Assembly (NCBI RefSeq): GCF_017874235.1 | Contig: NZ_JAGGLC010000004.1 | Location: forward strand, 1 to 64,000 | Reading direction: 5' to 3' | Source: Halolamina salifodinae | Lineage (GTDB): Archaea; Halobacteriota; Halobacteria; Halobacteriales; Haloferacaceae | Length of the DNA: 64,000 nt | Part shown: piece by piece, positions 8,783 through 34,439 of the stretch | Position numbering within the stretch: the stretch's first letter is position 1 | How the letters are laid out: every line of letters begins with the position of its first letter | Made by a program: the position numbers and the translations under genes | Notes under the pieces: model-generated | The model's database searches: none | Seen by the model: only the letters and a program-made list of their open reading frames with translations | Told to the model about the DNA's origin: nothing

Positions 8783-8964
8783 AAGTTCGACTGCGCGCGG
8801 CGCGGCCAAAACCGTTGTGCCGGCAGCCGTCGCTGTCGACGGCGACGGTGGCGAGCAGGCGGCGCGTGGGGATCTCGCGAGGGGCGCGCCACGCTCCCGC
8901 CTCGACTCCCTCGCGGCTGTTGGGGGCGCTGGTCGCCCGATCCGGTTTCAAACTCGGGGAAGAG

Positions 8965-8970
8965 CTTTCT
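8965..8970 (+). promoter_or_regulatory. TATA box for cyclodeaminase-family gene
   Basis: CTTTCT is centred about 27 bases before ATG 8994. Confidence 0.45.
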
Positions 8971-8993
8971 CCCGTCGGCAGCAGGTCGGGGGT

Positions 8994-9962: not shown

Positions 9963-9963
9963 G

Positions 9964-10608: not shown

Positions 10609-10701
10609 CGGATACAGGGAGCAGTTGGCTCTGTCGGAAGACGGACGCCCGACTATATCAAAATACCCCTTCCGGAGTCCCACGCGGAGAGCTGCCCGCG
10701 C

Positions 10702-12189
10702 TTACTCGTTGGGGCTGTAGTTGGGCGCCTCGTCGGTGATCATCACGTCGTGTGGGTGGCCCTCGGTCTGGCCGGCCGCGGAGACGCGGACGAACTCCGC
10801 GCGCCGCTTGAACCCGGGGATGGTCTCGGCGCCGACGTAGCCCATCCCGGACTGCATCCCACCGACGAGCTGGTGGAGCTCGGAGGCCAGCGTCCCCGTG
10901 TAGGGGGTTGCCGCCTCAACGCCCTCGGGGACGTAGTCCTCGTCGTTCTCCTCCTTGAGGTAGCGCTCGCCGCCGCCGGACTGCATCGCGCCGACGCTGC
11001 CCATCCCGCGGTACTGCTTGTACTTCTTGCCGTTCATCGTGATGACGCGGCCCGGCGCCTCGTCGGTGCCGGCGAAGTAGGAGCCGAGCATCACCGCGTC
11101 GGCGCCGGCGGCGATGGCCTTGATCGCGTCGCCGGAGTACCGAATCCCTCCGTCCGCGATGACGGGCACGTCCTGCTGGCTCGCCACGTCGGCCACCTCG
11201 GCGACGGCCGTGATCTGGGGCATCCCCGCGCCGGAGACGACTCGGGTTGTACAGATGCTGCCCGGCCCGATTCCGACCTTGATCCCGTCCGCGAAGTCGA
11301 CGCAGGCCTCGGCGGCCTCCTTGGTGCCGACGTTCCCGACCACCACGTCGGCGTCGACGGACTCGGTGATGGCCTCCGCGGAGTCGAGAACGTTGAGGTT
11401 GTGCGCGTGGGCGCAGTCGATGAACAGCACGTCGGCGCCGGCCTCGTCGGCGGCGACCGCGCGCTCCTCCTCGAACGGGCCGACTGCGGCGCCGACGCGC
11501 AGGCGACCGTCCGCGTCACGGGCCGCGTTCTCGTTCTCGCGACGCGCGAGGATGCCCTGCATCGTCAGGAGGCCGACGAGGCGGTCCTCGTCGTCGACGA
11601 TGGGGACGCGCTCGATCTTGTGGTCGTACATGAGTTCCAGTGCGTCGCGGGCGCTCACGTCCTCGGCGGCGGTGACGACTTCGTCGGTCATCGCCTCGCG
11701 GACTTCGTCGTTCTCGCCGACCTCGAGGTACGGCCGGATGTCGGTGCCGGAGATGATCCCCAGCACGGTGTCGTCGTCGTCGACGACCGGGGCGCCGGAG
11801 ACGCCCTTCTGCTCCATCATCGCGTCCACGTCGTCGACGGTCTGGTCGGGCGAGGCGGTGACGACGTTCTCCCGCCGGATCACCAGTTCGTCGGCGCGCT
11901 TGACCTGGATGATCGAGGCCTCCATCGCGGCGGTGTCCATGTTGCGGTGGAGCACGCCGAGCCCGCCCTCGCGAGCCATGCCGATGGCCATCCCGGCCTC
12001 GGTGACGGTGTCCATCGCCGCCGAGAGGATGGGGATCTGCAGATCGACGTTCTTCGTGACCTTCGTCGACACGTCCGCCGCGTCGGGTTCGACACGGCTC
12101 TCTTTGGGTCGCAGCAGAACGTCGTCGAACGTCAGCGCTTCCGGTACTCGTAGCTTCTCCGAGAAGGGTTCCGACTCGTTGCTCTCCAT
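10702..12189 (-). CDS. guaB: IMP dehydrogenase
   Basis: 495 residues. It catalyses NAD-dependent oxidation of IMP to XMP, the committed step of GMP synthesis. The TIM barrel begins with [12 protein letters not shown], two CBS domains are inserted at about residues 95-220, and the active-site loop [15 protein letters not shown] contains the catalytic Cys. The flap follows ([11 protein letters not shown]) and then YVPEGVE. Length is standard. The start MESNESEPF at 12189 has a TATA box 27 bases upstream, so the gene is probably leaderless and monocistronic. Confidence 0.97.
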
Positions 12190-12649
12190 GTAACAGGTGG
12201 TGAGCCTCGGCCCAAAAACGTTCCGAGTCCCGAAACCGTGTGCGCCGTCTCGCCACACCCGTCAGGCCCGGTATCGGGACATCGACCACGAGCAGCGGGT
12301 TGCCCCGCCGCGCTCGGCGGGCGTCGGCATATCTTCAGTTTTATGCCCGTATATCCGAGAGTTCGTAGACGTTTGGGCAGTTTCGCCGATGATGTGGCCG
12401 TGCATATGGGGGCCTTTCTCACGCAACGTTTATCGCCCTCTCGGGAGAACCAGTGGGTATGGACGTCGAAAGTCCCGCCGCATCGCGCATCGCCGGCCAG
12501 CCGACCGTCAGTGCCGCTGCGATCTTTAAACCGATGTGGCGAACACTTCGATGTCCGTTCCCGAAATTTACAGGATCCTCCCGCCACCGCGGCTATCCTG
12601 AATCGGGGTCACACCACCGTTTGGCCACGGGTGAGGCCGCTAGCTAGTC
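12190..12649. other. 460-bp gap with two TATA-like boxes and short reading frames
   Basis: Between divergent guaB and the 12650 gene there is no recognisable gene. Two plus-strand TATA-like boxes occur: CGTTTATC near 12427 with ATG 12459 downstream (frame to 12647, no recognisable protein), and TCTTTAAACC near 12523 with ATG 12551, a leaderless-spaced frame of only 16 codons (MSVPEIYRILPPPRLS). I cannot say whether either is translated. Confidence 0.4.
12211..12220 (-). promoter_or_regulatory. TATA box for guaB
   Basis: On the minus strand CGTTTTTGGG is centred 27 bases before the guaB ATG. Confidence 0.55.
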
Positions 12650-13624
12650 GTGAGTGTCTCCGATCACCCGATCGCGCTTCGCCTACAGCAGCGCGTCCGG
12701 GGCCCCACGAAGCTTCTCGCAACCGTCATGGGCCTGCCGCTGGTCGACGGCATCTTCCCCGCGCTGGTCATCGCCGGCGCGCTGACGACCGAAGCCGGCG
12801 CCCTCGACCCAGCCGGCATGCTCCAGACCGGCCTCCTCATCTTCGGCGGGTCGGCCACGGTGGCCGTCATCCTCGCGGAGATGGACGGCTCGCGCGCCGA
12901 GAAGGTCAGCTCCGTCCTGCTTCTGGGGCTGGTCCTGATCCCCGTCGCCGTCGTCGAGGCCGCGTTCGCCGAGACGCTCCGCTCGGTGCTCGACTTCGCG
13001 ACCTTCCAGCGCTTTGCGGCCGTGGTGATCCTCGCCATCGCCGCCAAAACCGCGAGCGCCGAGATCGGCACCTACCTCCCCAGCCCCGGCACGGTCATCG
13101 CGCTCGGGCTCGTCGCGAGTGTCCGCCCGGCCGGCGCCGAACTCGTCGTCACCATCGAGCCGTCGACGCTGCTCGCGGCCGCCGGCGCCGCCGGCGCGGG
13201 CATCGCGTTCGCGCTGGGCGTCGCGCTCGCGGCGCCACAGCTCCGTGGCGTCGTCGACCTCGACCGCTTCCGCTTCGGGAGTTCGGTCGCGCTCGGGATG
13301 CTCGCCATCGAAGTGCTCGGCCTGATGCCGGTCCAACAGCCGGTCGCGCTGGCCGTGCTGGTCGTGAGCGCGGTGTTCGCCTACGACCCGGACGCCAGCA
13401 TCGACGCCGCCGCGGCGCCGACGGAGCCAGCCATCGACTACACTGCCGACGCGGGGAGCGAGGACCGCCCCGTCGACCTCCCTGCGGAGCTAACCGCGCG
13501 GAGCTACCCGGAGGAGCGTGAGGAGACGGTGTTCGGCGCCGACGGCGGCACGAAGACCGAGGCCGAAGACGGCCCGGCCGAGAACGCCGAGACGGCCGAG
13601 CCCGAACGCCCGCCGTACCTCTAA
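12650..13624 (+). CDS. Haloarchaeal multi-pass membrane protein (DUF5794-like)
   Basis: 324 residues starting with GTG (VSVSDHPIALRLQQRV). Around seven hydrophobic segments occupy residues about 20-245, followed by a cytoplasm-like acidic tail of about 75 residues rich in Ala, Glu and Pro. The pattern matches the haloarchaeal DUF5794 family as I recall it. Function is unknown. A T5 run follows the stop. The DUF number is from memory and should be confirmed by profile search. Confidence 0.8.
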   Translation: MSVSDHPIALRLQQRVRGPTKLLATVMGLPLVDGIFPALVIAGALTTEAGALDPAGMLQTGLLIFGGSATVAVILAEMDGSRAEKVSSVLLLGLVLIPVAVVEAAFAETLRSVLDFATFQRFAAVVILAIAAKTASAEIGTYLPSPGTVIALGLVASVRPAGAELVVTIEPSTLLAAAGAAGAGIAFALGVALAAPQLRGVVDLDRFRFGSSVALGMLAIEVLGLMPVQQPVALAVLVVSAVFAYDPDASIDAAAAPTEPAIDYTADAGSEDRPVDLPAELTARSYPEEREETVFGADGGTKTEAEDGPAENAETAEPERPPYL

Positions 13625-13632
13625 ATAGGTCC

Positions 13633-13637
13633 TTTTT
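13633..13637 (+). terminator. Oligo-T terminator
   Basis: A T5 run lies nine bases past the stop of the 12650-13624 gene, between convergent genes. Confidence 0.4.
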
Positions 13638-13641
13638 CGGC

Positions 13642-14358
13642 TCAGCGCTGTCGGAGCCACCAGACCGCCACGACGCCGAGTAGCACCGCCGCCCCGCCGA
13701 GGAAAAAGAGCAGCCCCGGCGGCAGGCCGGTGGCGCTCTCGGCAGTCACCGTCGCCTCCGGCGCCTGCGTGGCGGTGGCCGCAGCCTGCTCCGTCGTCGT
13801 TTCAGTCACCTCGGCGACGCTCAGCCCCGTCTCTGTCGGCGTCGAGGTGGCTGTCGGCGTCGCCGTCGCGTCAGCGGCCGTGTCGTAGTCGCCGCCGCTC
13901 CCGGCCGTCCCGAACGGGAACGGCAGGTCGCCGACGTACGCCTGGACGAGCACGCTCCCCAGTCCCAGCGCCGCAACGGCGCCGATGAGCCGGGAGAGCG
14001 CGGCTTTGAGCCCGGTCGTGTCGTCCTCCGTGCCGGCGTAGACGATCAGCGGGGCGTCGGCGGGGCCGTACACCTGCATCTCGCGGCCCTTCTCGGAGTA
14101 GACCGTGTCGACTGGCTCGATCAGGCCGGCCTCTTCCAGATTGCCGATGTGGTACTGGGCGTTCTGCAGCGAGATGTCCTGTCGGTCGGCGATCCCCGAG
14201 GGGGTGTCGGGATCCCCGTGGAACGCGCGCAGCATGCCCCGAGCAGTGTCCGAGGAGAGCGCAGCGAGGGTTTCGCCCGCCTCGTCGCTGTCGACGCCGA
14301 GCACCCGTGGTTCGGGGTCGGGGTCGGCGTCCGGGGTGGAGGGTAACAGATCGACCAT
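13642..14358 (-). CDS. Membrane-anchored winged-helix (ArsR-like) regulator
   Basis: 238 residues. Residues about 25-95 form a winged helix (TARGMLRAFHGDPDTPSGIADRQDISLQNAQYHIGNLEEAGLI) typical of haloarchaeal ArsR-like transcription regulators. A hydrophobic segment (about 115-135), a Thr/Ala-rich extracellular-type linker and a C-terminal transmembrane helix (LLFFLGGAAVLLGVVAVWWL) ending in RQR follow. It may sense an envelope signal and act on nearby promoters, but targets are unknown. Confidence 0.82.
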   Translation of the reverse strand: MVDLLPSTPDADPDPEPRVLGVDSDEAGETLAALSSDTARGMLRAFHGDPDTPSGIADRQDISLQNAQYHIGNLEEAGLIEPVDTVYSEKGREMQVYGPADAPLIVYAGTEDDTTGLKAALSRLIGAVAALGLGSVLVQAYVGDLPFPFGTAGSGGDYDTAADATATPTATSTPTETGLSVAEVTETTTEQAAATATQAPEATVTAESATGLPPGLLFFLGGAAVLLGVVAVWWLRQR

Positions 14359-23622: not shown

Positions 23623-23849
23623 GGATGTGTGGGTCCCCTCCGCCGACGGCGTGATCGGCTGCCTCGCGGTTCGACACCGCGAACACGTGCCGGCGTCAGG
23701 CTCGGAACGGGATCGACGTACCGCGTTCCCCCGTCCGAGCAAGGGGGGTTACTGCGTAGGTCGGGGGATTACGGGCTTTACTGTTTCGTTCCGACCGGAT
23801 CGGCGTGGTAGCGACGACTGTTTCCCGCCGGGGTGAGAACGGCCGGGCG

Positions 23850-24824
23850 ATGGCCCGCGAGTGGCTCCAGCGACGGCAGGTGGCGGTGTACGCCGGAGCG
23901 GTCGCGCTGGCGGTCGCCCTCGCGGTCGGTCGGCCGTCGACGGCGCCGGTCCTCGAAGGCCTGATCGACCCGACGCTCGCGGTGCTGCTCTACGTGACGT
24001 TCCTCGAGGTGCCGTTCGTTCGTCTGCGCCGGGCGTTCCGGAACCGCCGGTTCGTCGGCGCCGCGCTGGCGACGAACTTCCTCGTCGTTCCGGCGGTGGT
24101 CTGGCTGCTCACGCGCGCGCTCCCGAACCGCCCCGCGCTACTGCTCGGGGTGTTCATGGTGCTGTTGACGCCCTGTATCGACTACGTCATCACGTTCACC
24201 GGCCTCGCGGGCGGCGACGCCGAACAGGTGACGGCGACGACGCCCGCCCTCCTGCTCGCGCAACTGCTGGCGCTGCCAGCGTACCTCTGGCTGTTCCTCG
24301 GGCCGACAGCGGCCGCAGCGGTCGAGATCGGTCCGTTTCTGGAGGCGTTCCTGCTGATCATCGCGCTGCCGCTCTCGCTGGCGTGGCTGACTGAGGCGTG
24401 GGCCGAGCGCTCGCCCCGCGGCGCGTCGTGGCAGGCGGCGATGGGCTGGCTCCCTGTACCGATGCTGGCTGTGACGCTGCTGGTGGTCATCGCCTCTCAG
24501 CTCCCCCGGATCGGCGACTCGCTTGGGCAGGTCGCCGCGGCCGTCCCGGTGTACGTCGCGTTTTTGGTCGTGATGCCGCCGATAGCGCGGCTGGTGGGTG
24601 CTCGGCTGGATCTTCCGGTCGGCGAGCAGCGTGCGCTCGTGTTCACCTCGGTCACGCGGAACTCGCTGGTGGTGCTTCCGCTGGCGCTGGCGCTCCCGGC
24701 GGGCTACGAACTGGTGCCCGCAGTGGTGGTGACGCAGACGCTCGTGGAACTGGCGGGAATGGTCGCGCTGACTCGGGTCGTGCCGCGGTGGCTGGTGCCG
24801 GACCGATCGGCAGCCGAAAACTGA
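23850..24824 (+). CDS. ACR3-like / bile acid:sodium symporter family transporter
   Basis: 324 residues with about ten transmembrane segments. The segment LLTPCIDYVITFTGLAGGD resembles the conserved Cys region of ACR3 arsenite exporters (PCxxMVxxW), but the aromatic/Trp context differs, so the substrate is uncertain. TSVTRNSLVVLPLALALP matches the family's TM9-10 motif. The start is set at ATG 23850 (MAREWLQ). A GTG at 23805 in frame would add 15 polar residues. No arsR or arsenate reductase gene is nearby. Confidence 0.83.
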   Translation: MAREWLQRRQVAVYAGAVALAVALAVGRPSTAPVLEGLIDPTLAVLLYVTFLEVPFVRLRRAFRNRRFVGAALATNFLVVPAVVWLLTRALPNRPALLLGVFMVLLTPCIDYVITFTGLAGGDAEQVTATTPALLLAQLLALPAYLWLFLGPTAAAAVEIGPFLEAFLLIIALPLSLAWLTEAWAERSPRGASWQAAMGWLPVPMLAVTLLVVIASQLPRIGDSLGQVAAAVPVYVAFLVVMPPIARLVGARLDLPVGEQRALVFTSVTRNSLVVLPLALALPAGYELVPAVVVTQTLVELAGMVALTRVVPRWLVPDRSAAEN

Positions 24825-24828
24825 GGAG

Positions 24829-25188
24829 TTACACCCCCGGGATGCCGACGGCCTCGAACGCGCCGATGTTCATCAGGGCGAGCATGTAGAGGACCACGAG
24901 CGTCGCGATCCACGCGATCAGGGCGATGAGGGCGGCCGCGAACCAGCCGCCGGGGTAGCGATAGTGGATGACGCCGATGTACGCCAGCAAGACCAGCGCC
25001 GGACCGAGCAGCGGTATCCAGCCAAAGAGGAAGCCGGCGACGGCCCAGATGATCGCGCCGATCAGCGCGGTCACGATGGCGTACGTGTAGTCTTTCGAGC
25101 CGGTGACGAGTTGGGCGCCGACGTAGATACCCAACGCCCCGATGAGGAGGCTGACGATGAAGACGATGAGCGAGTCGAGTAGTGCCAT
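24829..25188 (-). CDS. Small membrane protein, four helices
   Basis: 119 residues, almost entirely hydrophobic, with four predicted transmembrane helices (about 1-25, 33-58, 62-80, 83-105). No catalytic motif is present. The start is set at MALLDSLIVF rather than three codons upstream. It is convergent with the ACR3-like transporter (4-base gap). Similar proteins are common in haloarchaea and uncharacterised. Confidence 0.75.
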   Translation of the reverse strand: MALLDSLIVFIVSLLIGALGIYVGAQLVTGSKDYTYAIVTALIGAIIWAVAGFLFGWIPLLGPALVLLAYIGVIHYRYPGGWFAAALIALIAWIATLVVLYMLALMNIGAFEAVGIPGV

Positions 25189-25277
25189 ACAGGTCACCCG
25201 GCCCGCCGGTGGATAGTTAGCCCCCGCTTATCGGAACCTCGTCCCGGGCCGGGACCCTACGGAGGAGTCCCCACCGC

Positions 25278-25790
25278 TCACTCGTAGACCTCGCCGCGTC
25301 CCTCGCGTGACTGCAGCCACGTCCCGAGCGAGAGGCCGAAGATGACGTGGCCAGTGTGGAACACCATCCGCTCGCCGTCGTCGAGTTCCTCGCCGAGGAG
25401 TCGTCGGAACACCACCCGCGTCCCGAACACTGAGAGCAGGAGACTGTAGCCGACAGCGAGCGTGACGGCGGTGAATCGACGGCTCCGCGCCGTCCGGACG
25501 TCGACGAGGCTGAACGCCAGCCCCAGCAGGCCGCCTGCGGCGCCGCCGTAGAGCAGGTGCAGCGCCAGCCCCTCGATTGGGTACTCTTCGGCCCTCCCTC
25601 CGGCGACGTACGTCGCCCAGAACTCGGCCGTCGGCGGCACCGCCCGAAAGGTCGGGAACCGGTAGAGTGTCATCAGGACAGTCGCGACGAGGCCACCGAC
25701 GACCCCGCGACCCGCCGACCGGAGGACCCCGAGCGTGGTGAGCGTGTGCCGAGCGGACCGCTGCGCGGTGTCGGACTGTTGGCCAGTCAT
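25278..25790 (-). CDS. Uncharacterised membrane protein
   Basis: 170 residues with four hydrophobic segments (about 26-45, 75-100, 108-130, 143-162). The start is MTGQQSDTAQ at 25790. It is the last core gene before the chorismate-mutase-associated island, so on the uninterrupted chromosome it would be the gene just downstream of chorismate mutase. Function unknown. Confidence 0.75.
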   Translation of the reverse strand: MTGQQSDTAQRSARHTLTTLGVLRSAGRGVVGGLVATVLMTLYRFPTFRAVPPTAEFWATYVAGGRAEEYPIEGLALHLLYGGAAGGLLGLAFSLVDVRTARSRRFTAVTLAVGYSLLLSVFGTRVVFRRLLGEELDDGERMVFHTGHVIFGLSLGTWLQSREGRGEVYE

Positions 25791-25882
25791 GCCGCCAGAT
25801 GCGGGCGAAACGTGGAAAACAGTAGTTACGACGTGTGTACCAGAAACTCCGGCCATCCGGCCGTTCGACCGACGAGGGACCG

Positions 25883-25909
25883 TTACCGGCTCTCGCGCTG
25901 TTCGACCTT
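25883..25909 (-). repeat. Copy A of chorismate mutase 3' end (att-like)
   Basis: Read on the minus strand this encodes KVEQRESR then TAA, the exact last eight residues of chorismate mutase, with host-preferred codons. Bases 25884-25909 are identical to 26640-26665. Upstream of the Lys codon similarity stops and the frame soon meets a stop codon, so it is an orphan gene end. Confidence 0.85.
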
Positions 25910-25963
25910 CTTGAATTTTTCGAATAGAGGGACAGATACAATAGAAAGTTCCCAGATCCCAAA

Positions 25964-26356
25964 CTACTCCATCAACTCGGTTGGCTGGACTGCACCATGT
26001 TCCAGTAGTTCGCCATCGAACGTGACTAGAGTGGCGTCAACATCCTCGGCAAGGGCGAGGAGTATGCAGTCGAGCGTGTACAGTAGCGTGTCTTGCTGGA
26101 GACCGTACGCCGAAATTTGGTCGCTGATTTCCGGCGCATAGATATCGACGCGTCCGTAGATATCGGCTAGGAGTTCCTCAACTTGTTCTTGCTCAACACG
26201 CTTCTTTTTCGTCAACACCGACCGAATCTCCATAAGGTTGAGAATCGATGTGCAAAACTCGTAGTCCTCGTTTAGGAGGTCAGTCGCTATTTCGCCACGG
26301 CCCGGCTCATCAGTAATGCTGGCGATGAATACGTTCGTATCGATGAACAGCTTCAT
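25964..26356 (-). CDS. vapC: PIN-domain ribonuclease toxin (VapC-like)
   Basis: 130 residues. PIN active-site acidic residues are visible in order: MKLFIDTNVF (Asp6), LNLMEIRSV (Glu), TLDCILLALAEDV (Asp) and ATLVTFDGELL (Asp). VapC toxins cleave tRNA or rRNA when unbound by antitoxin. It starts four bases inside the end of the upstream small gene, the classic vapB-vapC overlap. It sits between copies A and B of the chorismate mutase end, so the toxin may stabilise this insert. Confidence 0.85.
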   Translation of the reverse strand: MKLFIDTNVFIASITDEPGRGEIATDLLNEDYEFCTSILNLMEIRSVLTKKKRVEQEQVEELLADIYGRVDIYAPEISDQISAYGLQQDTLLYTLDCILLALAEDVDATLVTFDGELLEHGAVQPTELME

Positions 26357-26544
26357 CGACGCTCTCGGGCTTCACGAACCGCCTCGACGGAGTCGACATC
26401 AACATCTTCCAGTCGGCCGGACAGTAGATCACCGAGCTTGACTGTCGATCCGTCGTCCGTATCAGAGCCACCGAGCGTAGTTGTCGGTTCGTCACTCCCC
26501 TCAGTCGACTTTGGCCAATCTGGCGGCCTCGCGTAGCTTCCCAT
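26353..26544 (-). CDS. Putative antitoxin of the PIN pair
   Basis: 63 residues starting MGSYARPPDWPKS, acidic, ending VDVDSVEAVREARERR. It has no recognisable DNA-binding domain, but position, size and the 4-base overlap with the PIN gene argue for an antitoxin. The start at 26544 is preferred over 26589 because TTTACTATT lies 20-28 bases before it. The C-terminal helix probably blocks the PIN active site. Confidence 0.65.
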   Translation of the reverse strand: MGSYARPPDWPKSTEGSDEPTTTLGGSDTDDGSTVKLGDLLSGRLEDVDVDSVEAVREARERR

Positions 26545-26563
26545 ATAGTATAATAGCGGAGCT

Positions 26564-26572
26564 AATAGTAAA
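26564..26572 (-). promoter_or_regulatory. TATA box for toxin-antitoxin operon
   Basis: TTTACTATT at -20 to -28 relative to ATG 26544 supports a leaderless transcript for the pair. Confidence 0.55.
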
Positions 26573-26638
26573 TCAGTTTGGCTGGTCATCCCCTATTCCC
26601 GATCCGGGAGAGTACACAAACGCATCTGACTGGTCGTA

Positions 26639-26677
26639 CTACCGGCTCTCGCGCTGTTCGACCTTGTTCAGTTCAAT
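26639..26677 (-). repeat. Copy B of chorismate mutase 3' end (att-like)
   Basis: On the minus strand it encodes IELNKVEQRESR then TAG, identical in protein sequence to the last 12 residues of chorismate mutase. 31 of 39 bases match copy C, and all eight differences are synonymous or swap one stop codon for another. A stop codon lies two codons upstream, so it is not part of a gene. Confidence 0.9.
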
Positions 26678-26722
26678 AACTCACGTAACACGCTTTCGTG
26701 TACTTTACCGGTATCCCAGTAA

Positions 26723-26860
26723 CCCGCTTGTAGCAGTGTGGTCAAAGCCGGCAATCTCACGTCGCTGATGCTGGAGGAAGCCCATGCCGTGTCGAGCCTG
26801 AAAGAACGTGTTCTAAAGTCGTACCCTTGGTCAGACGAGCCTTCTCGCGTTACAGGCTGA
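26723..26860 (+). other. Short open fragment, unassigned
   Basis: A frame closed by TGA at 26858 stays open for 45 codons (including LMLEEAHAVSSLKERVLKSY). It lacks a start near its 5' end other than GTG 26738 and overlaps the end of the convergent metallo-hydrolase gene. It may be a remnant of a larger gene lost from the island. I recognise no family. Confidence 0.2.
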
Positions 26861-27608
26861 TCTGCTCCCCGTCTTCAGGAACGTGTACGTCCTCCGTCTC
26901 CGCTCGCAGTTCCTCGCGCGACAGCAAGCAGTGGTTAATCGCCTCCATGTGGACGACGACGACGGTGGCATCGGTGGCCTCGCGGACAGCTGAGATGTCT
27001 TCGACGCCCATTGTGATGGGTTCGCCCTGCTCGAACTGTGCTTTGCCGCCGTTGAGGACGACCATGTCGGGCTCGAACTGGTCGAGGATCTCTTCGACCG
27101 GTTCGTACCAGATCGTGTCGCCAGCGACGTACACCGTCTCGTCGCCCTCGAAGACGAAGCCCGAGACCGGGCCCATCCCCTCGGCTAACTCGCCATGTCC
27201 GTGTTGGCCCGGCGTTCGGTAGATGGTGACACCGTCGAAGGAGGTCTCGTCGTCAACAGGCCGGACGTCGGCAAAGCCTTCATCGGTAAACGCCTCGGCC
27301 TCCTCGGGTTGACAGAACAGTGGCACGTCGGCGTCGAGTTCCTCTCTGGCCGCCTCGTCCCAGTGATCGGGGTGGCGATGCGTGACGACCACGGCGTCGT
27401 ACGATAAACTCACGTCCGGCAATGGAACGAGTGGGTTCCGTTTCTGGTTCGCTGTCGTAAGGAACTCGGGAACGGCAGGGTTGTCCGTCACCGTCGGCAT
27501 CTCGCCCTGCGGCGTGAACATCGGATCGACGAGGAACGTCGTGTCGCCAACGTCCACGAGAATCGTGGCGTTGCGAATCAGCTGCACGTTAGTACCAGTT
27601 GTTGGCAT
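26850..27608 (-). CDS. Metallo-beta-lactamase-fold hydrolase (UPF0173/UlaG-like)
   Basis: 252 residues. It starts MPTTGTNVQLIRNATILVDVGDTTFLVDPMF, and zinc-binding motif THRHPDHWD, GQHGHGE and AGDTIWYEP are in the right order for the UlaG/UPF0173 class. UlaG relatives hydrolyse lactones or phosphodiesters. The true substrate here is unknown. It follows the HTH regulator with a 77-base gap containing its own TATA box. The start is chosen at ATG 27608, since the longer frame has no promoter. Confidence 0.85.
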   Translation of the reverse strand: MPTTGTNVQLIRNATILVDVGDTTFLVDPMFTPQGEMPTVTDNPAVPEFLTTANQKRNPLVPLPDVSLSYDAVVVTHRHPDHWDEAAREELDADVPLFCQPEEAEAFTDEGFADVRPVDDETSFDGVTIYRTPGQHGHGELAEGMGPVSGFVFEGDETVYVAGDTIWYEPVEEILDQFEPDMVVLNGGKAQFEQGEPITMGVEDISAVREATDATVVVVHMEAINHCLLSREELRAETEDVHVPEDGEQISL

Positions 27609-27640
27609 ACAGGTACCATTGTGAGGGCCATCGGGGTAGG

Positions 27641-27648
27641 ATTTATTT
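27641..27648 (-). promoter_or_regulatory. TATA box for metallo-hydrolase
   Basis: AAATAAAT on the minus strand lies about 37 bases before ATG 27608, giving a predicted leader of about 10 bases. Confidence 0.45.
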
Positions 27649-27685
27649 CGACATATTCCAACCGACGTGGCGTTCAGCCACTCGC

Positions 27686-28453
27686 TCACTGAATGAACTC
27701 GATATCCTCAGGATCCAGATCTACGTCGAGGTCGATGTCGAGTGAATCGGCGGCGAACTGCTGTGCCAGCCACGCCTCCGCTCGGTTGAGACGGTACTGG
27801 AACGTCGAACGCGACACGTCTACGTCGGCAGCAATTTCGGTGACCGACTGCTGCCGTGGCTCCTCGTAGTACCCGCGTTCGATTGCAGCCTCAAGTGCTG
27901 ACTTCTGTTCGGGCGTGAGGGTTTGCTGGACGCGACCGTCTTCGAGCAAGCACGGCGGCGTGCCGAGGCGTTCGACAGTAAGCGACAGTCCCTCCCGAAG
28001 GTTCTCACGGACTTCCTCGTGAATCGCTGTGACAGGCTCGTCGATGAGCAAGCGCCATCGGAATTGGTCGCCACGACGCTCCGATCGCATTATCAACCCC
28101 TCGCCGATATGGTTCGCGGCGACGAGCGGGATCGATCGCGGGCCGTCGCCTTCCCGGCGAAGCGAGTGGATTTTCCGTGACTCCGGGTTCGACGAGAGGA
28201 TCGTGTACTCGTACTCGGTCACGGGCGCACCACACATCCCAGTTGTATTCGGATCATTGGCGACGCGTTCTAGCCGGTCGTCAAGCTCGTCGAGAACAGT
28301 AGTTGGGCCGACGACTTTGTCGATTCCCCACACTGTCTCGCTGGTCGCATTGATCTCCATCGACCGGGCGTACAGCTCTGCATGTTCGATGAAGAGATCC
28401 ATCACCTCGTCAGCCCCTGCCTCGTATTCGACTGTAAAGACGAACTCGCGCAA
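27686..28453 (-). CDS. Bat-type (HTH_10) transcription regulator
   Basis: 255 residues. The N-terminal bacterio-opsin-activator-like sensor region (1-185) ends in LTPEQKSALEAAIERGYYEEPRQQSVTEIAADVDVSRSTFQYRLNRAEAWLAQQF, the C-terminal HTH_10 of haloarchaeal Bat regulators. The start codon appears to be TTG 28453 (MREFVFTVEYEAG matches Bat-family N-termini), with a TATA box 24-32 bases upstream. It probably controls the adjacent metallo-hydrolase gene. It lies between copies B and C of the chorismate mutase end. Confidence 0.85.
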   Translation of the reverse strand: MREFVFTVEYEAGADEVMDLFIEHAELYARSMEINATSETVWGIDKVVGPTTVLDELDDRLERVANDPNTTGMCGAPVTEYEYTILSSNPESRKIHSLRREGDGPRSIPLVAANHIGEGLIMRSERRGDQFRWRLLIDEPVTAIHEEVRENLREGLSLTVERLGTPPCLLEDGRVQQTLTPEQKSALEAAIERGYYEEPRQQSVTEIAADVDVSRSTFQYRLNRAEAWLAQQFAADSLDIDLDVDLDPEDIEFIQ

Positions 28454-28476
28454 GATACTGTACGTTCTCGCTCAAC

Positions 28477-28485
28477 GGGTAAAGC
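28477..28485 (-). promoter_or_regulatory. TATA box for Bat-type regulator
   Basis: GCTTTACCC on the minus strand is centred about 28 bases before the TTG start, which supports that unusual start codon. Confidence 0.5.
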
Positions 28486-28700
28486 CTGTTAGGTGTATTC
28501 TCTATACTTAACGATAATCGGTCATTGTGTGACAAATCCGGCATATTGTATGAAACGGTCGTCGTGGCCGCGTGTGCAACGAGACTTGCGTCAAATCTTC
28601 CGGCTGCTCATCGAGTCTGAAAATTCGTAAGGTGGCGTCGTGAATCGACTCCTATCTCACTAATACGCAGTTAGAAGACCTGAAATAGTCGTTCTCTCGC

Positions 28701-28739
28701 TTATCGACTCTCTCGTTGCTCAACCTTGTTCAGTTCGAT
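28701..28739 (-). repeat. Copy C: live 3' end of chorismate mutase gene, recoded
   Basis: The last 12 codons and stop. The final seven codons (GTT GAG CAA CGA GAG AGT CGA) use rarer synonyms than copies A and B. A 14-base stretch (28723-28736, matching 26661-26674) is identical between B and C and is the likely crossover zone. Confidence 0.85.
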
Positions 28740-28991
28740 CAGTAGCCGGAAAATCGCCTTCACGAGGTTCGAGTCGACATCGAAGCGCTCGGCGTTCTCG
28801 CCCGCGCGGTCCATCACCGCCTGCTCCTGTGCCTCGTCGGTGGTCGGGAGCCCCTGTTCCTCCTTCACGTCGGCGATGGTGTCGGCGACGTAGGTGCGTT
28901 GGGCGATGAGTTCGACCAGTTCCTGATCGATCTGTTGGATCTCCTCGCGCAGTTCGTCCAGCGTCATGTCGTCGGGTGTGCGTTCACTCAT
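28701..28991 (-). CDS. Chorismate mutase (AroQ class)
   Basis: 96 residues, all-helical AroQ type. It converts chorismate to prephenate for phenylalanine and tyrosine synthesis. Motifs include LDELREEIQQIDQELVELIAQRTYVADTIADVKEE and the C-terminal helix VKAIFRLLIELNKVEQ. Its ATG overlaps the shikimate kinase stop by four bases, so the two are one operon. The last seven codons are composed of less-favoured synonyms, and two extra copies of this gene end lie downstream (see repeats A and B). Confidence 0.93.
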   Translation of the reverse strand: MSERTPDDMTLDELREEIQQIDQELVELIAQRTYVADTIADVKEEQGLPTTDEAQEQAVMDRAGENAERFDVDSNLVKAIFRLLIELNKVEQRESR

Positions 28992-29863
28992 AGATAGCGT
29001 CCTCCGGTGGTCCGCGTCTCGGTTCGCAGCGTCTCGCCCGGGTGCTCGCCCCAGATCTCCGCGACGGCGTCCAGTCCCGCGGCGTCGCCGACGGCGACGA
29101 CGCTCGGTCCCGTGCCGGAAAGCGAGACGCCGTCGACGTGAGGCATCGCCTCGACAGCGGGGTCGGCCGAGAACCCCAACGCCGCCGAGAACGCGAGGCC
29201 GTTGACCGTCATCGCCTGACCGTACTTCCCAGCGAGCGCGAGGTCCTCGACCAACTCCGCCATCGGCGCCACCAACTCACAGCGGTCAGCGTCTGCGTCG
29301 GCCGAGTAGGCGCGCTCCGGCGGGGTCCAGATCAGCGCCTCCCAGTCGACCTCCTCGCGGGCGAGCAGTTCGTCCGCGGTGTTGTCGGTGACGGTGAGGC
29401 CGCCGAGCATCGACGCGCTGGCGTCGTCGAACGCGCCGGTGACGGTGACGCCCGCCTCGCGCGCGGCCTGCACGCCGACCCGGCAGGCCGCCTCGTGGTC
29501 GATGTCCCCGGCGAGGCCGAGTGCGTCGGCGGCCGCGAGTACCGTTGCGTTGGCGGCTGCCGAGGAACTCTTGAGGCCCGCAGCGGTCGGCACTTCGCTC
29601 TCGGTCCGGACCGTTCCTCCGGGGGCGTCCGGAACGTCGACGGGTGCGTCGTCGCGCCAGCGCTCGACCGCCAGGGTCACGCAGCGCTCGATCAGTTCGG
29701 TATCGGCGTCAGGCTGGCCGTCGATGGCTCCGGACATCCCGCCCGAGCCGTCGAGGTCGACGTGCGCGGCGGTCTCGATGTCGAGCGCGAACGCCGAACC
29801 CCGACCCGTCGCGAGCGCGTTGAGCACCGTGCCCGCACCGGGCGCGGCGGCGTGGCCGTCCAT
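28988..29863 (-). CDS. aroK: Archaeal GHMP-type shikimate kinase
   Basis: 291 residues of the GHMP kinase superfamily, unrelated to bacterial AroK. The ATP-binding loop PTAAGLKSSSAAANAT and the C-terminal SLSGTGPSVVAVGD are diagnostic, and GAFDDASASMLGG matches archaeal shikimate kinases. It phosphorylates shikimate in the aromatic pathway. The start is MDGHAAAPGAGTVLNAL. It is coupled to chorismate mutase by ATGA overlap. Another GHMP kinase lies just upstream. Confidence 0.93.
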   Translation of the reverse strand: MDGHAAAPGAGTVLNALATGRGSAFALDIETAAHVDLDGSGGMSGAIDGQPDADTELIERCVTLAVERWRDDAPVDVPDAPGGTVRTESEVPTAAGLKSSSAAANATVLAAADALGLAGDIDHEAACRVGVQAAREAGVTVTGAFDDASASMLGGLTVTDNTADELLAREEVDWEALIWTPPERAYSADADADRCELVAPMAELVEDLALAGKYGQAMTVNGLAFSAALGFSADPAVEAMPHVDGVSLSGTGPSVVAVGDAAGLDAVAEIWGEHPGETLRTETRTTGGRYL

Positions 29864-29939
29864 GCCCCTACCGGGGGCGTTCCGGGGCTTGAAGCTGGTG
29901 GTCCCGACAGTGTCGGGCGACCGACAGCAGTCGGGTGAC

Positions 29940-30719
29940 CTACAGCAGCCGAGCGCCCGCAGGCGACACCCGCGTCCGGTTCGGGAGCACGCCCTCGCAG
30001 TCGACGGCAACGACCGTCTCGCCGAGCATCGCCATCGTCCCGACGCCGCCCTCGGCCTCGACGCGCGCCACGTCCTCGACCACGCGCTCGGTCGGGAGGC
30101 CCAGCGCCCGCGCGAACGGCCACGAGCGCTCGACGACCGCGCGAACCGTTGGCGGATCGGGCAGCGAGTCGAGCACCGCGCCGCCTTCCTCGCGAACGGT
30201 CGCCATCAGTTCCTCGTCGGCCAGCGCGTCCGCGGTCGGCAGGCCGCCGTAGGAGGCGTACTCGACTGGCTCGTCGGTTTCGACGCGCTGGCGGCCGTTC
30301 CCGACGTTGTAGACCAGTCCGCCGGCCTCCTGCACGAACACGTCGCCGAGGCCGGTGCCGGCGTCGACCTCGGCGTCGTGGGCGTGGCTGAGGAGTTCAT
30401 CTCGGGAGTTTCCGAGGTCGAACTGTGCGTTCGCGGCCAGCGCGGTCGCGAGCGTGGCGGCGCCGCTGGCGCCGAACCCCGCGCCGATAGGGGTGTCTGG
30501 CTGGACGTCGACGGCGGCGGCGACGCCGAGGCGCTCGAGCACCCCCGCGACGGGTTCGAAGCTGGCTGGCTCGCCGTCGACGGTTACGGTCGTCTCCTCG
30601 GCGGCGGCGACGGAGACGGTCACGCCGTCCTCGAGGGCGACGCTGGCGCCGCGGGAGCCGGATTCGGTGTCGTCGGGGGCGAAGACGGCCGTCACGCTGG
30701 CCGGGGCGAACGCGTCCAT
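29940..30719 (-). CDS. Pantoate kinase (archaeal GHMP kinase)
   Basis: 259 residues. It starts MDAFAPASVTAVFAP, with the GHMP ATP loop DTPIGAGFGASGAATLATALA and the glycine-rich TGLGDVFVQEAGG. The pattern matches archaeal pantoate kinase (COG1829), which makes 4-phosphopantoate for coenzyme A synthesis together with phosphopantothenate synthetase. Gap to aroK is 76 bases, so co-transcription is possible. The synthetase partner is not in the window. Confidence 0.9.
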   Translation of the reverse strand: MDAFAPASVTAVFAPDDTESGSRGASVALEDGVTVSVAAAEETTVTVDGEPASFEPVAGVLERLGVAAAVDVQPDTPIGAGFGASGAATLATALAANAQFDLGNSRDELLSHAHDAEVDAGTGLGDVFVQEAGGLVYNVGNGRQRVETDEPVEYASYGGLPTADALADEELMATVREEGGAVLDSLPDPPTVRAVVERSWPFARALGLPTERVVEDVARVEAEGGVGTMAMLGETVVAVDCEGVLPNRTRVSPAGARLL

Positions 30720-30822
30720 ACCGGCTGCTGGGGTTGGGCGTAGTTGAATCGGGGTGGTTCGGCCGGCACTTTGGCGTCATCGAGGCGTAACACTCAAACG
30801 CGGACCCCGACAATCCAGAGGC

Positions 30823-31110
30823 ATGGAACTGCGGGTCATCGAAAAGACTGAGGAGGAACTCCGCATCGAGGTCGCCGGCGAAGGGCACACGTTCATGAAC
30901 GTGCTCAAGGGGACCCTGCTGGAGAACGACGACGTGGCCGCCGCGACCTACGACGTGAACCCCGAGCAGTCGGGGGGTCAGACCGAGCCGATCCTCTCGA
31001 TCACGACCGAGGGCGGCGCCGACCCCCTCGACGTGCTCGAGGAGGCCGCCGGCGGCGTGAGCACGAAAACCGAAGAACTGCGTACCGCGTTCGAAGACAC
31101 CGCCGCCTGA
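30823..31110 (+). CDS. rpoL: DNA-directed RNA polymerase subunit L (Rpo11)
   Basis: 95 residues. The L/RPB11 motif [33 protein letters not shown]... is complete. With subunit D it forms the alpha-like assembly platform of archaeal RNA polymerase. It stands alone, followed by convergent hisF. Confidence 0.95.
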
Positions 31111-31224
31111 ACTTCTTTCGGCCATCTCCGCGGTTGGTCGGTGACTCTCTGCCGGCGTCGACTCATCGGCGCTCCGGCAGGCGGTGCCTGAATGGCGACA
31201 GCCCGCCGAAGCGTGCGCTGCGAC

Positions 31225-32040
31225 TCAGATACGGACCGGGATGCCCCGCTCGGCGAGATACTGCTTGACCTCCTGGATCGTGTAGTCGTCGAAGTGCAGA
31301 ATCGACGCCGCCAGCCCCGCGTCGGCGTCGGCCTCGGTGAACACCTCGTACATGTCCGCGGGCGAGCCACAGCCTGAGGAGGCGATGACGGGCGTCGAGA
31401 CGGCGTCACAGACCGCGGAAGTCAGCGGGATGTCGTAGCCGTCCTGGGTGCCGTCCTTGTCGATGGAGTTGACGAACAGTTCGCCCGCGCCGCGCTGTGC
31501 AGCCTCCTCGGCCCACTCGACGGCGTCGAGGCCGGTCCCCTCGCGGCCACCCTTGACCGTGCACTCGAACCAGCAGGACTCGCCGTTGACGCGCTCGTAA
31601 TGTTCGCCCTGCTCGTCGTAGCGCCGGCGCGCGTCGAGCGAGATGACGATACACTGGGAGCCGAACGCCTCGGCGCCACGGTTGATCAGGCTGGGGTCGG
31701 CAATGGCGCCGGAGTTGATGCTGACCTTGTCCGCGCCGGCCCGCAGCGTCTCCTTGATGTCGTCGGTGGTGCGGATCCCCCCGCCGACGGTCAGCGGGAT
31801 GAACACCTCGTCGGCAACCGCCGAGACGGTGTCGAGCATCGTCTCGCGGCCCTCCGCGCTGGCGGTGATGTCGAGGAAGACGAACTCGTCGGCGCCGGCC
31901 TCGTTGTAGCGTTTGGCCATCTCCACCGGGTCGCCGGTGTACTCCAGGTCCTCGAAGTTGACGCCGGTGTACACTGCCGGCTCGCCGTTCTCGTCAACGT
32001 CCACGTCGATGCAGGGGATGACCCGTTTGGTGAGCGTCAT
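31225..32040 (-). CDS. hisF: Imidazole glycerol phosphate synthase, cyclase subunit
   Basis: 271 residues, TIM barrel. The catalytic Asp residues are in RVIPCIDVD and ISLDARR, and phosphate-binding loops TVGGGIRT and [14 protein letters not shown] are present. It makes IGP and AICAR with HisH, linking histidine and purine synthesis. The start at 32040 ([15 protein letters not shown]) is clear. Other his genes are not nearby, as is usual in haloarchaea. Confidence 0.96.
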
Positions 32041-32176
32041 TGTGTGGGCTGGGCGGGTTCGGTGAGCGCTCCGCGCATACCCGAGGCTGGGCGGTCCACC
32101 CATTTGCACGTTACGGAACTGGCGGTCCGGCGCCGAGAGAAAACCCCGAGACGGGAGCGTGCCACTCGCCGGAAGC

Positions 32177-32183
32177 GATTTAC
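32177..32183 (+). promoter_or_regulatory. TATA box for small zinc-finger gene
   Basis: GATTTAC is centred 27 bases before ATG 32207. Confidence 0.55.
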
Positions 32184-32206
32184 GGTGTCCGTCCCCACGT
32201 CCGGGC

Positions 32207-32341
32207 ATGGTCGAAGCAACGGAGCGCGACGGCATGACGTGGTACCAGTGTGAGAGCTGTGGCCTCCTGTTCGACGACGAGGGCGACGCCAGCCAGCACG
32301 AGGACAACTGTGCGGGCGACGATCCCTCGTACTTGCAGTAG
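32207..32341 (+). CDS. Small single-zinc-finger protein (DUF7128-like)
   Basis: 44 residues: MTWYQCESCGLLFDDEGDASQHEDNC holds a C-x2-C...H-x4-C arrangement, a C2HC-like zinc finger. The gene is leaderless, with a TATA box 27 bases upstream. Haloarchaeal genomes hold many such micro zinc-finger proteins, several linked to regulation, but this one's role is unknown. The family number is from memory. Confidence 0.8.
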   Translation: MVEATERDGMTWYQCESCGLLFDDEGDASQHEDNCAGDDPSYLQ

Positions 32342-32342
32342 C

Positions 32343-32386
32343 CGCGCTCAACCGTCACCACTGGCGCGCTCAACCGTCACCACTGG
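32343..32386. repeat. 22-bp direct repeat, two perfect copies
   Basis: The unit CGCGCTCAACCGTCACCACT+GG occurs at 32343-32364 and 32365-32386, immediately after the zinc-finger stop codon. No gene is disrupted. Confidence 0.9.
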
Positions 32387-32437
32387 CGCGCCCCGCCGTC
32401 GCTATCGCTGCGCCGACTCCCGTCGACGCCGTCGCCG

Positions 32438-32875
32438 TCAGTCGTCCCCTTCTCCGACGATTTCGAAGCTCTGCTCGCCCCAGTCGTCCTCGACGAACAC
32501 GAACACGCGGCCGCGGGCGACTTCGGGGTCTGCCTCGACCTCGATCCGGCGGGCCTCGCCGTGGCGCACGGTGACGCCCGGGAACACCTCCTCGCTCTCC
32601 CCGGGGTCGAGCATCACCCGGCCGACGCCGGTGTCCTCGAGGATCTCGTCTTCGGTTTTCAGGTCGTTGATGTAGAGCATCACGCCCTCCGTCTCGGTCG
32701 GGTCGGTCACGAGCAGGTGACACTCCTTGCCGGGGCCGGTCCGGAGGGAGCCCTCCTTCACGGTGGGGACGCCCCGGTAGAGCGTCTCGCGGCCGTCGGC
32801 GTACTCGACGACCACGCCCTCCTCGCGGAGGTCGACGCCGACGGTTCCCGGGGGTACGTCGTTCCGGTTGGACAT
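32438..32875 (-). CDS. Conserved haloarchaeal protein (DUF5796-like)
   Basis: 145 residues, beta-rich and acidic, with GTVGVDLREEGVVVEYADGRETLYRGVP and GKECHLLVTDPTETEGVMLYINDLKTEDEIL. No catalytic motif is evident. I match it to haloarchaeal DUF5796 from memory. It precedes the lipoprotein/DUF2110/tfe cluster on the same strand but is 84 bases downstream of it and may be transcribed with it. Confidence 0.78.
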   Translation of the reverse strand: MSNRNDVPPGTVGVDLREEGVVVEYADGRETLYRGVPTVKEGSLRTGPGKECHLLVTDPTETEGVMLYINDLKTEDEILEDTGVGRVMLDPGESEEVFPGVTVRHGEARRIEVEADPEVARGRVFVFVEDDWGEQSFEIVGEGDD

Positions 32876-32959
32876 ACTCGGACTACCGCCTGCGGGCGCA
32901 AAAGGGCCGCGACGCGCGGTCGTCAGCGGAGAAGCGAGGCGAGAGCGGCGGCGAAACGG

Positions 32960-33748
32960 TCAGCCCATCCCCGGTGGCGGGCCGTCGCCGTCGTCGTGCT
33001 CGATATCCACGTCGAGTCCGATCTCCTCCCGGCGTTCGCGGAGTTCCTTGATCTTCCGCCAGTAGTAGCCGCCGCCGGCGACGCCGACGCCGACCAGGCC
33101 GATTAGCAGGCCGCCGAACAGCTGCACGTCACGCGGGAGGTAGTAGCGCACGAGCAGCGTCTCGCCGGTGGCCTGGACCCAGACGATGTGGAGTCGGCCG
33201 TCCAGCGTGATCGTCGAGTCCGGCGCGGGGACGATGCGGCCGAACAGCGGCACGGACGTCTCGCGGTTCTCCGGAAGGACGACGGTGTAGGAGCCCTCCT
33301 CGACGGCAATCGGGTGGGAGAACTGCTTGGGCGTGCCGTCGCCCGAGTAGGCCATCTTGCCGTCGTCAGCCGGCGGTTCGATCACGAGCGCGTTGTCCTG
33401 CGTGCCCACGGAGCCGCCGTGCTCGTCGAACTTCGAGCCGTTGATAACCGTCCCGTTGGGGTAGCGATAGCGCAGCGACCGGATCGACACCGGCGTGTCG
33501 GTGCCGAGGAAGCCGCCCTCGGCGAGCCTGATGCTCTCGTTGAACGCCGAAACGTCGTACACCGCGCGGTAGGTGGTCTGGTTGGTGACGGTGATGGAGA
33601 CGTCAGTGTTGGTGTCCCAGTCGTACGCCGTCTCGGGGGGCTGGTCGAGTTGGTCGTCGCTGGCCGGGCCGCCGCCGATGCCGCCGAGGCAGCCGCTCAG
33701 CACCAGCAGGCCCGCGAGCGCGAGCAGCGCGAGGCGTCGACGGCTCAT
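32960..33748 (-). CDS. Membrane-anchored lipoprotein (DUF5803-like)
   Basis: 262 residues. The signal peptide has lipobox LSGC (Cys about 20), a beta-rich exported domain (about 40-205) and a single transmembrane helix (about 210-232) followed by a charged cytoplasmic tail KIKELRERREEI. It is exported and anchored at both ends. It starts only four bases after the DUF2110 stop, so it is in the same operon as tfe. Function unknown. Confidence 0.82.
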   Translation of the reverse strand: MSRRRLALLALAGLLVLSGCLGGIGGGPASDDQLDQPPETAYDWDTNTDVSITVTNQTTYRAVYDVSAFNESIRLAEGGFLGTDTPVSIRSLRYRYPNGTVINGSKFDEHGGSVGTQDNALVIEPPADDGKMAYSGDGTPKQFSHPIAVEEGSYTVVLPENRETSVPLFGRIVPAPDSTITLDGRLHIVWVQATGETLLVRYYLPRDVQLFGGLLIGLVGVGVAGGGYYWRKIKELRERREEIGLDVDIEHDDGDGPPPGMG

Positions 33749-33752
33749 CGGC

Positions 33753-34439
33753 TCAGGGGACGACGCACTTGAGCTCCGCCGGCAGGTACTCGCCGACGCT
33801 GGCGAGCAGGCCCGGCGGGTCGGTCCCTTCCGTACAGACGACGCTCTGTTCGAGCAGGCCGAGGCGCTCGACGGTCACGACGTCCCGGGCGTGGCCCGCG
33901 CGGTTGAGCGTGGCGCGCACTTCGCCCCGGGTCGCGGAGTTGACGTTTAGGCGCCCGCCGGTCTCGCCGTCCTCGTCGCGGGTCCAGCCGTAGAGCATGT
34001 CCTGCGTTTCGTCGGCGAGGCGGTGGTCGCCATCCTCGTCGTAGACGAACGCAAGCGGCGTGTGCTGGACGACGCCGAACCGGTCGCGGATCTGGGACGG
34101 GTCGCCCGGCCCGAGACCGAGGTCGTCCCGGGAGATGTCGATCTTCTGGCCGGCGTCGAGCACCCAGCCCTCGTCGTTCCAGTAGCGCAGCGTGCCGACG
34201 TACGTCTCGCCGTGGTCGAAGTGGTCGGTGACCTCCCCCCAGCGCTCCCGCAGGAGGTTCTGGGCGACCGTCTCGTCGTCTCCCTCGACGGTGACCGAGA
34301 CGAACTCGTCGTCGAGGACGCCGATGGTCCAGTCGATGTCGAGTTCCGCGAGGTCGTTGGCGACCAGCGAGTCGAGCGAGTCGAGTGCGCGCTCGCGGGC
34401 GTCGCCCTCGACGTAACATTTGGTTGCGAGGACGACCAT
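33753..34439 (-). CDS. DUF2110 family protein
   Basis: 228 residues. MVVLATKCYVEGDARERALDSLDSLV and LLERSVVCTEGTDPPGLLASVGEYLPAELKCVVP-type ends match archaeal DUF2110 proteins, which are found beside TFE in many archaea. A role with transcription or RNA handling is suggested by that context only. The start overlaps the tfe stop by one base (TGATG), so translation is coupled. Confidence 0.87.
   Translation of the reverse strand: MVVLATKCYVEGDARERALDSLDSLVANDLAELDIDWTIGVLDDEFVSVTVEGDDETVAQNLLRERWGEVTDHFDHGETYVGTLRYWNDEGWVLDAGQKIDISRDDLGLGPGDPSQIRDRFGVVQHTPLAFVYDEDGDHRLADETQDMLYGWTRDEDGETGGRLNVNSATRGEVRATLNRAGHARDVVTVERLGLLEQSVVCTEGTDPPGLLASVGEYLPAELKCVVP

Follow-up and report, generated by a model that had tools for sequence, protein, structure and literature searches.

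The 3' end of the chorismate mutase gene (CM) appears to be an attachment (att) site for site-specific recombination in haloarchaea, and we consider it likely that small cassettes insert there, presumably moved in trans by integrases of a clade that we call IntCM. The arrangement is exemplified by a stretch of 64,000 nucleotides from Halolamina salifodinae (contig NZ_JAGGLC010000004.1, positions 1 to 64,000; hereafter the window), in which copies of the CM coding end bound two consecutive cassettes. An original prediction made from this DNA alone proposed integration into the CM 3' end. Sequence comparisons support it through repeats, empty sites, units that recur across slots, genera and families, CM ends specific to each element, and a clade of CM-associated integrases.

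The three copies of the CM end that had been predicted in the window are all on the minus strand and, by translation, run in frame to a stop codon. Copy A (25883-25909, -) reads KVEQRESR*, and copy B (26639-26677, -) and the true CM end, C (28701-28739, -), both translate to IELNKVEQRESR*. A and B share 26 identical bases (25884-25909 = 26640-26665), as originally reported. With up to three mismatches, this 26-base repeat has two matches in the window versus a mean of 0.00 in 100 shuffles, and it occurs in the 2.75-Mb genome assembly only as copies A and B. C differs from A and B synonymously, probably because C is a newer end, delivered by the first cassette. A chance origin of the repeats is ruled out by the shuffles, by a reverse-strand control and by internal CM 30-mers, and a tRNA gene as the target by ARAGORN, which finds no tRNA in the window. 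As had been noted, the stretches separating the copies are AT-richer, with a GC content of 0.580 and 0.520 versus 0.673 in the window, 0.700 in the flank at 29000-34000 and 0.598 in the CM gene itself. The array consists of two successive inserts rather than a single island. Features of the array are as follows (weight-matrix scores are explained below).

28988..29866, minus strand: shikimate kinase gene, just upstream of CM, named from annotated plasmid homologues
28701..28991, minus strand: CM, the proposed integration target (PF01817, E 5.7e-20)
28701..28736, minus strand: putative hybrid CM 3' end, attL-like; homology to plasmid pHTS171 begins at 28736
26678..28700, minus strand: body of cassette 1 (2,062 bp from the CM stop to the end of copy B)
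27686..28453, minus strand: HTH_10 / HVO_2928_N transcriptional regulator, cassette 1 cargo (PF24281, E 4.2e-52; PF04967, E 3.4e-15)
26850..27614, minus strand: MBL-fold hydrolase, cassette 1 cargo (PF12706, E 2.9e-16)
26639..26677, minus strand: copy B, which would be the att site separating cassette 1 from cassette 2 (weight-matrix score 55.8 bits)
25910..26638, minus strand: body of cassette 2 (756 bp from the end of copy B to the end of copy A)
26353..26544, minus strand: small protein that may be the antitoxin to the PIN toxin; its start is set by comparison with a 50-amino-acid open reading frame (ORF) of locus L085
25964..26356, minus strand: PIN-domain (VapC-like) toxin (PF01850, E 3.6e-16; phrog_17124, E 1.2e-55)
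25883..25909, minus strand: copy A, putative distal att relic and former gene end (weight-matrix score 34.6 bits)

Both cassettes have att sites on either side and no recombination genes, the features by which cis-mobilisable elements are recognised; a scan of the array's ORFs against Pfam reveals no integrase. The longer ORF at 26353-26589, which includes the putative antitoxin, has no Pfam or NCBIfam match.

CM is present in 167 of 170 genomes of the family. Our survey covers 135 CM genes, from the window and from 133 fetched CM-bearing stretches that represent most of the CM-bearing family genomes (handles G, C and L denote genomes, contigs and loci). G061 has two CM genes, G129 gave two matching stretches, L220 held no CM, and L039 and L040 are one genome and hence not independent. 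Downstream sequence is shorter than 9 kb in six of the 135 loci, with 745 bases in one of them, and matches more than 9 kb from CM are not counted, save those of L037 and L192. The last 30 bp of each CM recurs, with at least 22 of 30 bases matching, within 5 kb downstream in 48/135 loci and on the reverse strand in 0/135, compared with 6 of 405 control tests that used internal CM 30-mers at the same cut. A 50-bp weight matrix built from 49 downstream copies (consensus TTATGGATTTCAGCTACCTGAACAAGGTCGAGCAGCGGGAGAGTCGGTAG; cut of at least 18 bits) yields 94 forward sites and 0 reverse. These sites occupy 68 of the 135 loci in 19 of 24 genera, with one copy in 47 loci, two in 16 and three in 5. Matches in L033 (779; the window's genus) and L071 (421; empty site L083) pass the 22/30 cut, score 11.4 bits and are excluded from the 68. 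The left arm of the att site, roughly the first 18 bases of the matrix consensus, is not CM sequence. A candidate right arm, the motif T[TC]N?CAG located at 12-40 nt, occurs at 22 of 94 segment starts versus 6.5% of 1,800 control windows and is no more than suggestive. Spacing and content vary among loci, and copies lie on one strand downstream of CM; the patterns named beforehand as contradicting integration, many relatives sharing the same three copies around unrelated DNA or scattered chance matches, are not what is observed.

The pattern GATTTCAGCTACCTGAACAAGGT, with up to three mismatches, extends these observations to 95 of 391 genomes of the class, in 41 of 86 genera (the reversed-pattern control hits one genome). 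Outside the family, 64 of 76 motif sites (51 of 60 genomes) follow CM on the same strand at a distance of no more than 50 kb, and for 59 the distance is no more than 10 kb; inside the family the same holds for 35 of 39, giving 99 of 115 overall. Three att-like sites in G342:C4:14036-21556, whose CM is on another contig (C24), are possibly the same array split by assembly. A three-mismatch att-like site in G295:C1:2087648-2091034 is ~2.3 kb from an integrase relative, and there too CM is on another contig.

Comparisons between relatives point to insertion. The original prediction called for empty sites, and precise ones exist for G054 versus G051 (in the window's genus) and for G016 versus G014; in each pair homology restarts at the copy in one partner and at the CM stop in the other. 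As a check the prediction also asked for CM directly followed by the gene at 25278-25790 (25278-25856 here), and this gene is not found in the first 20 relatives. For 10 of the 68 occupied loci, a comparator has, at zero offset, the DNA past the last copy as the DNA past its own CM stop; allowing 120 bp, the number is 24. By reading, the zero-offset comparator is host DNA in five cases (L032/L034, L054/L053, L080/L103, L100/L102 and L129/L107). The other five comparators begin with a MazF-like cassette (from a cluster of 20), which points to insertion ahead of an older cassette.

Recombination between homologous sequences or a tandem duplication around CM might instead have made the repeats, without a site-specific recombinase. 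Larger duplications or transfers do occur, as G061 has a second shikimate kinase-CM pair in its array. However, the copies are only ~30-50 bp long and begin with the non-CM left arm, some empty-site junctions are precise, and the integrases found beside CM cluster in a tree (below), so we judge such an origin very improbable.

Cassettes also seem to have moved between hosts. The MazF cassettes (n = 11, ~713 bp) are more alike than the CM bodies of their hosts in 44 of 55 pairs, and in one example from two genera the cassettes are 95.0% identical versus 81.0% for the CM bodies. Cassette 1 recurs, over window positions 26809-28736, on plasmid pHTS171 of Haloterrigena salifodinae, which belongs to another family, Natrialbaceae; a CM array there holds it in its second slot (88.9% identity over 1,932 aligned columns). 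Because this homology starts at the CM-end copy, the last 36 nt of the window CM were probably supplied by cassette 1. A plasmid of Natronorubrum bangense has four sites scoring 35-51 bits after its CM, together with toxins annotated as PIN, RelE/ParE and MazF.

The shikimate kinase-CM pair is itself conserved: tblastn places the kinase just upstream of CM in 20 of 20 stretches from the first 20 relatives. The pair and an array reside on both plasmids, pHTS171 (L237, 171 kb) and that of Natronorubrum bangense (L238, 214 kb). In L038 (G061:C48), positions 8289-13838 hold two such pairs in one array, ~69/78% and 76/90% identical to those of the window, and the second CM's own end acts as a copy within the array. 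This suggests transfer of a whole CM-array block.

The 94 segments bounded by copies have a median length of 986 bp, and two of them are the islands of ~38 kb described below. Certain lengths recur (709-714, 732-735, 754, 772/773, 807, 954/955 and 1232-1237 bp). Mean segment GC is 0.571, compared with 0.698 in the 1.5 kb that runs up to the CM stop and 0.642 in the 2 kb past arrays. Sixty-four segments fall into six toxin-antitoxin-like clusters, which were named from scans of one or two representatives each: PemK/MazF toxins (22 segments), four PIN clusters (12, 10, 9 and 8, the PIN match being weak in the cluster of 12) and RHH/ParE (3). Members of a cluster vary, in that some exceed the common unit and others are short fragments. 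Cassette 2 of the window belongs to cluster c4, which has eight members in four genera. The remaining segments, by reading of their translations, carry alpha/beta hydrolases, a methyltransferase, a glyoxalase-like protein, an acetyltransferase, and metal-ATPases or other transporters.

The window's PIN toxin gene region (25964-26356) has 66% DNA identity to a VapC gene that halovirus phiH carries in its L segment. A viral source of the cassettes was considered and rejected, as no CM-end pattern or integrase match emerged from viral data and only the PIN gene resembles a phiH gene. Beyond copy A are two genes without Pfam match (25278-25856 and 24829-25197) and then a transporter-like gene (23805-24824, identified by reading its sequence). 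The latter is host DNA here, and its homologues in L115 and L070 reside inside segments bounded by CM ends, as if an old cassette had become fixed.

Candidate recombinases are encoded beside CM in several genomes. A 400-amino-acid tyrosine recombinase (PF00589) is found downstream of CM in Halolamina pelagica (G052). Its closest relative in the 170 family genomes (G109, 52%) is also downstream of CM, as is an integrase fragment in G022 (58% over 99 amino acids). A two-sequence integrase profile searched against the 391 class genomes adds G342 and G383, which score far above the rest. Among 25 genomes in which CM positions were established (nine further genomes with integrase matches, G194, G261, G271, G272, G304, G317, G374, G408 and G413, were left out), the integrase is downstream of CM in G052, G109, G383, G412, G281 and G342 (10.6 kb from CM in the last), with a remnant in G022; the remaining 18 have no listed integrase there. 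This agrees with the expectation that tyrosine recombinases would be found beside CM elsewhere. In a tree of 30 integrases, rooted only at the midpoint, the four CM-linked ones included are on one side of a branch with support of 100/98. The CM tails of integrase-linked genomes differ by element (RDNRKTE, RHNRKTD, RHNREIK and RQNR; longer in G412 and G281). A PDB search with the integrase profile gives no match. We dropped an SNJ2-type label suggested by operon layout, as there is no match in a phage collection at E 1e-5, although the presence of SNJ2 in that collection was unchecked.

Two integrase-bearing islands could be followed to their ends; they measure 37,563 and 37,944 bp and terminate in att copies, whose left arms match the cassette consensus at 17/20 and 20/20 bases (counted by eye). 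In G109, the DNA past the island resembles MazF-type cassettes. At 7281-18956 of L192, the G109 island also encodes an HmaB-like methylase and a helicase with matches to several defence models, of which BrxHI is the best and HmaA another, and the G052 island has a helicase that looks related to the latter.

It had been remarked that no integrase is present within the window's island, and that one might have been lost or act in trans. This fits our data: the window genome has 12 PF00589 matches, of which the nearest on the window's contig is more than 160 kb away, and none is similar to the CM-linked integrase at E 1e-60. Since no CM-linked integrase was found in this genome or identified at 65 of 68 occupied loci, we infer action in trans. 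Alternatively, the segments could be decayed remnants of integrase-bearing islands, each of which later lost its IntCM by deletion, so that none is mobile in trans. Such islands at CM have the same att arm, G022 retains only an integrase fragment, the distal end of cassette 1 is lost on pHTS171, and ssrA islands of Dehalococcoides without integration modules are known (PMC3146451). However, a compact unit of 709-714 bp is found in 11 segments from three genera in slots 1, 2 and 3, and cassette 1 keeps the same CM-side boundary in another family. Independent deletions would not produce this recurring length and boundary, and wholesale decay seems to us unlikely.

Under the explanation by insertion in trans, a mobile cassette would carry an att site in which a left arm (~TTATGGATTTCAGCTAC) is joined to a duplicate of CM's final ~33 nt, and would insert within the last codons of CM. 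The insertion would exchange the CM end, including the codon aligned to the catalytic Gln, for the cassette's own in-frame end, and the old end would be pushed downstream, where it persists as a direct repeat and decays. Repeated insertions could then build arrays, and the window array would comprise the MBL hydrolase/regulator cassette followed by the PIN toxin cassette. IntCM, the tyrosine-integrase clade on ~38-kb islands in two genomes, presumably catalyses these events and may move integrase-less cassettes in trans.

Conservation of the gene end is in keeping with such renewal. Gln92 of the window CM aligns with residue 88 of 1ecm (phmmer, query 11-92 versus chain 7-88), and a Gln matching that residue of E. 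coli CM, where it is catalytic, is kept in 135 of 135 CM genes. The downstream copies (n = 94) retain the stop in 77 cases, the Gln in 79 and both in 65, a partial loss as expected of former gene ends that are no longer under selection. The elements are flanked by direct repeats of the target's 3' end, and CM is kept intact.

Several observations weigh against this explanation. For the array in the window, relatives provide no clean empty site. Plasmid pHTS171 keeps only the CM side of cassette 1, with homology stopping at window position 26809, and the next site past it scores just 7.5 bits. Plasmids L239 and L240 also carry relatives of the PIN gene and the MBL/regulator pair, with no att copy in the parts of them that were fetched. 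Neither a circular form nor an attP is seen, and one degenerate CM-end pattern has no exact match in viral contigs. A CM-linked integrase is found neither in the window genome (91.79% complete) nor, as an identified gene, at 65 of the 68 occupied loci, and neither viral contigs nor the phage collection contain a relative of it. The CM-proximal copy is better preserved in 14 of 21 arrays, which is not significant (p = 0.07). Half of the survey, 67 of 135 loci, has no copy above the matrix cut, and the matrix derives from 49 copies of the same loci, which makes the forward count partly circular. At a cut of at least 20/30, 59 of 135 loci qualify and one reverse match appears, but 70 of 405 tests with internal 30-mers then pass as well, which makes this looser threshold unusable. 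Finally, 16 of 115 motif sites are on another contig, are far from CM, or belong to genomes in which CM was not found (G353) or not listed (G162).

Taken more broadly, the system might constitute a class-wide, independently arisen archaeal counterpart of integrons, a possibility that we entertain tentatively and that falls somewhat short of being probable. The CM end would be the entry point, IntCM would act in trans from visiting islands on a pool of ~1-kb cassettes shared across genera, families and replicons, and each capture would renew the gene end, with only working ends surviving. The CM end appears to be a specific entry point through which genes are captured in much of the haloarchaeal class. 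Such an entry point would account for a hotspot of toxin-antitoxin-like modules, and the analysis names a candidate recombinase clade. An enzyme C-terminus, including an active-site Gln, is apparently replaced again and again by mobile DNA. A short att site in a gene with an assayable product also offers a simple test bed for trans-mobilised archaeal cassettes.

Partial parallels exist in other systems. Staphylococcal cassette chromosome elements at rlmH insert in the 3' end of a housekeeping gene, renew that end and form composite islands; they differ from CM cassettes in that they use serine recombinases, are larger and are bacterial. CcrB is a serine recombinase. In Dehalococcoides, tandem islands past the conserved ssrA gene have direct repeats of its 3' end and a motif just upstream, like CM arrays, and 16 islands have an integration module whereas 15 do not (PMC3146451). 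Those islands target a tmRNA gene, with a proposed recombinase, DsiB, that resembles CcrB, and carry cargo that includes reductive dehalogenases. In contrast, the CM system has an enzyme-coding target gene, a tyrosine recombinase and units mostly of ~1 kb.

Archaeal integrons and clusters of attC sites lacking integrases (CALINs) also consist of tandem small cassettes at one site in one orientation, mostly without an adjacent identified integrase (PMC9668308). CM arrays could accordingly be true integrons, in which IntI acts on attI and folded attC sites and the CM end is an odd attI. Yet the integrons described there have IntI and structured attC and come from metagenome-assembled genomes, and the word 'Halobacter' has 0 occurrences in the available text of that paper. 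Each CM repeat simply duplicates a coding end, next to a left arm that is conserved; the window array contains no integrase, and the two CM-linked integrases scanned score 37.0 and 38.3 bits with the archaeal XerA/integron-integrase model, whose cut-off is 220. On these grounds, no attC search having been made, we regard a true integron as extremely improbable.

SNJ2-type haloarchaeal integrases, a family defined by 30% identity over 60%, resemble IntCM in gene layout, being tyrosine integrases with two small genes adjoining (PMC8371274). SNJ2 integrates at a tRNA gene (PMC8371274), and the IntCM query has no match in the phage collection at the threshold given above, with the same proviso about SNJ2. 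The original prediction regarded a CM target as undescribed, and our literature search likewise found no report of one; 'chorismate' has 0 occurrences in the available text of a paper on Halorubrum ezzemoulense islands (PMC11078007). Integration into the 3' ends of archaeal protein-coding genes is already documented (PMC6563490, PMC8371274), so only the CM target looks new. In Thaumarchaeota, 14 of 68 integrated elements occupy the 3'-distal part of protein-coding genes; CM is not among the targets named in the available text, which describes no arrays of integrase-less ~1-kb cassettes (PMC6563490). In the example shown there, the element introduces a stop codon, much as CM cassettes would supply the gene end (PMC6563490).

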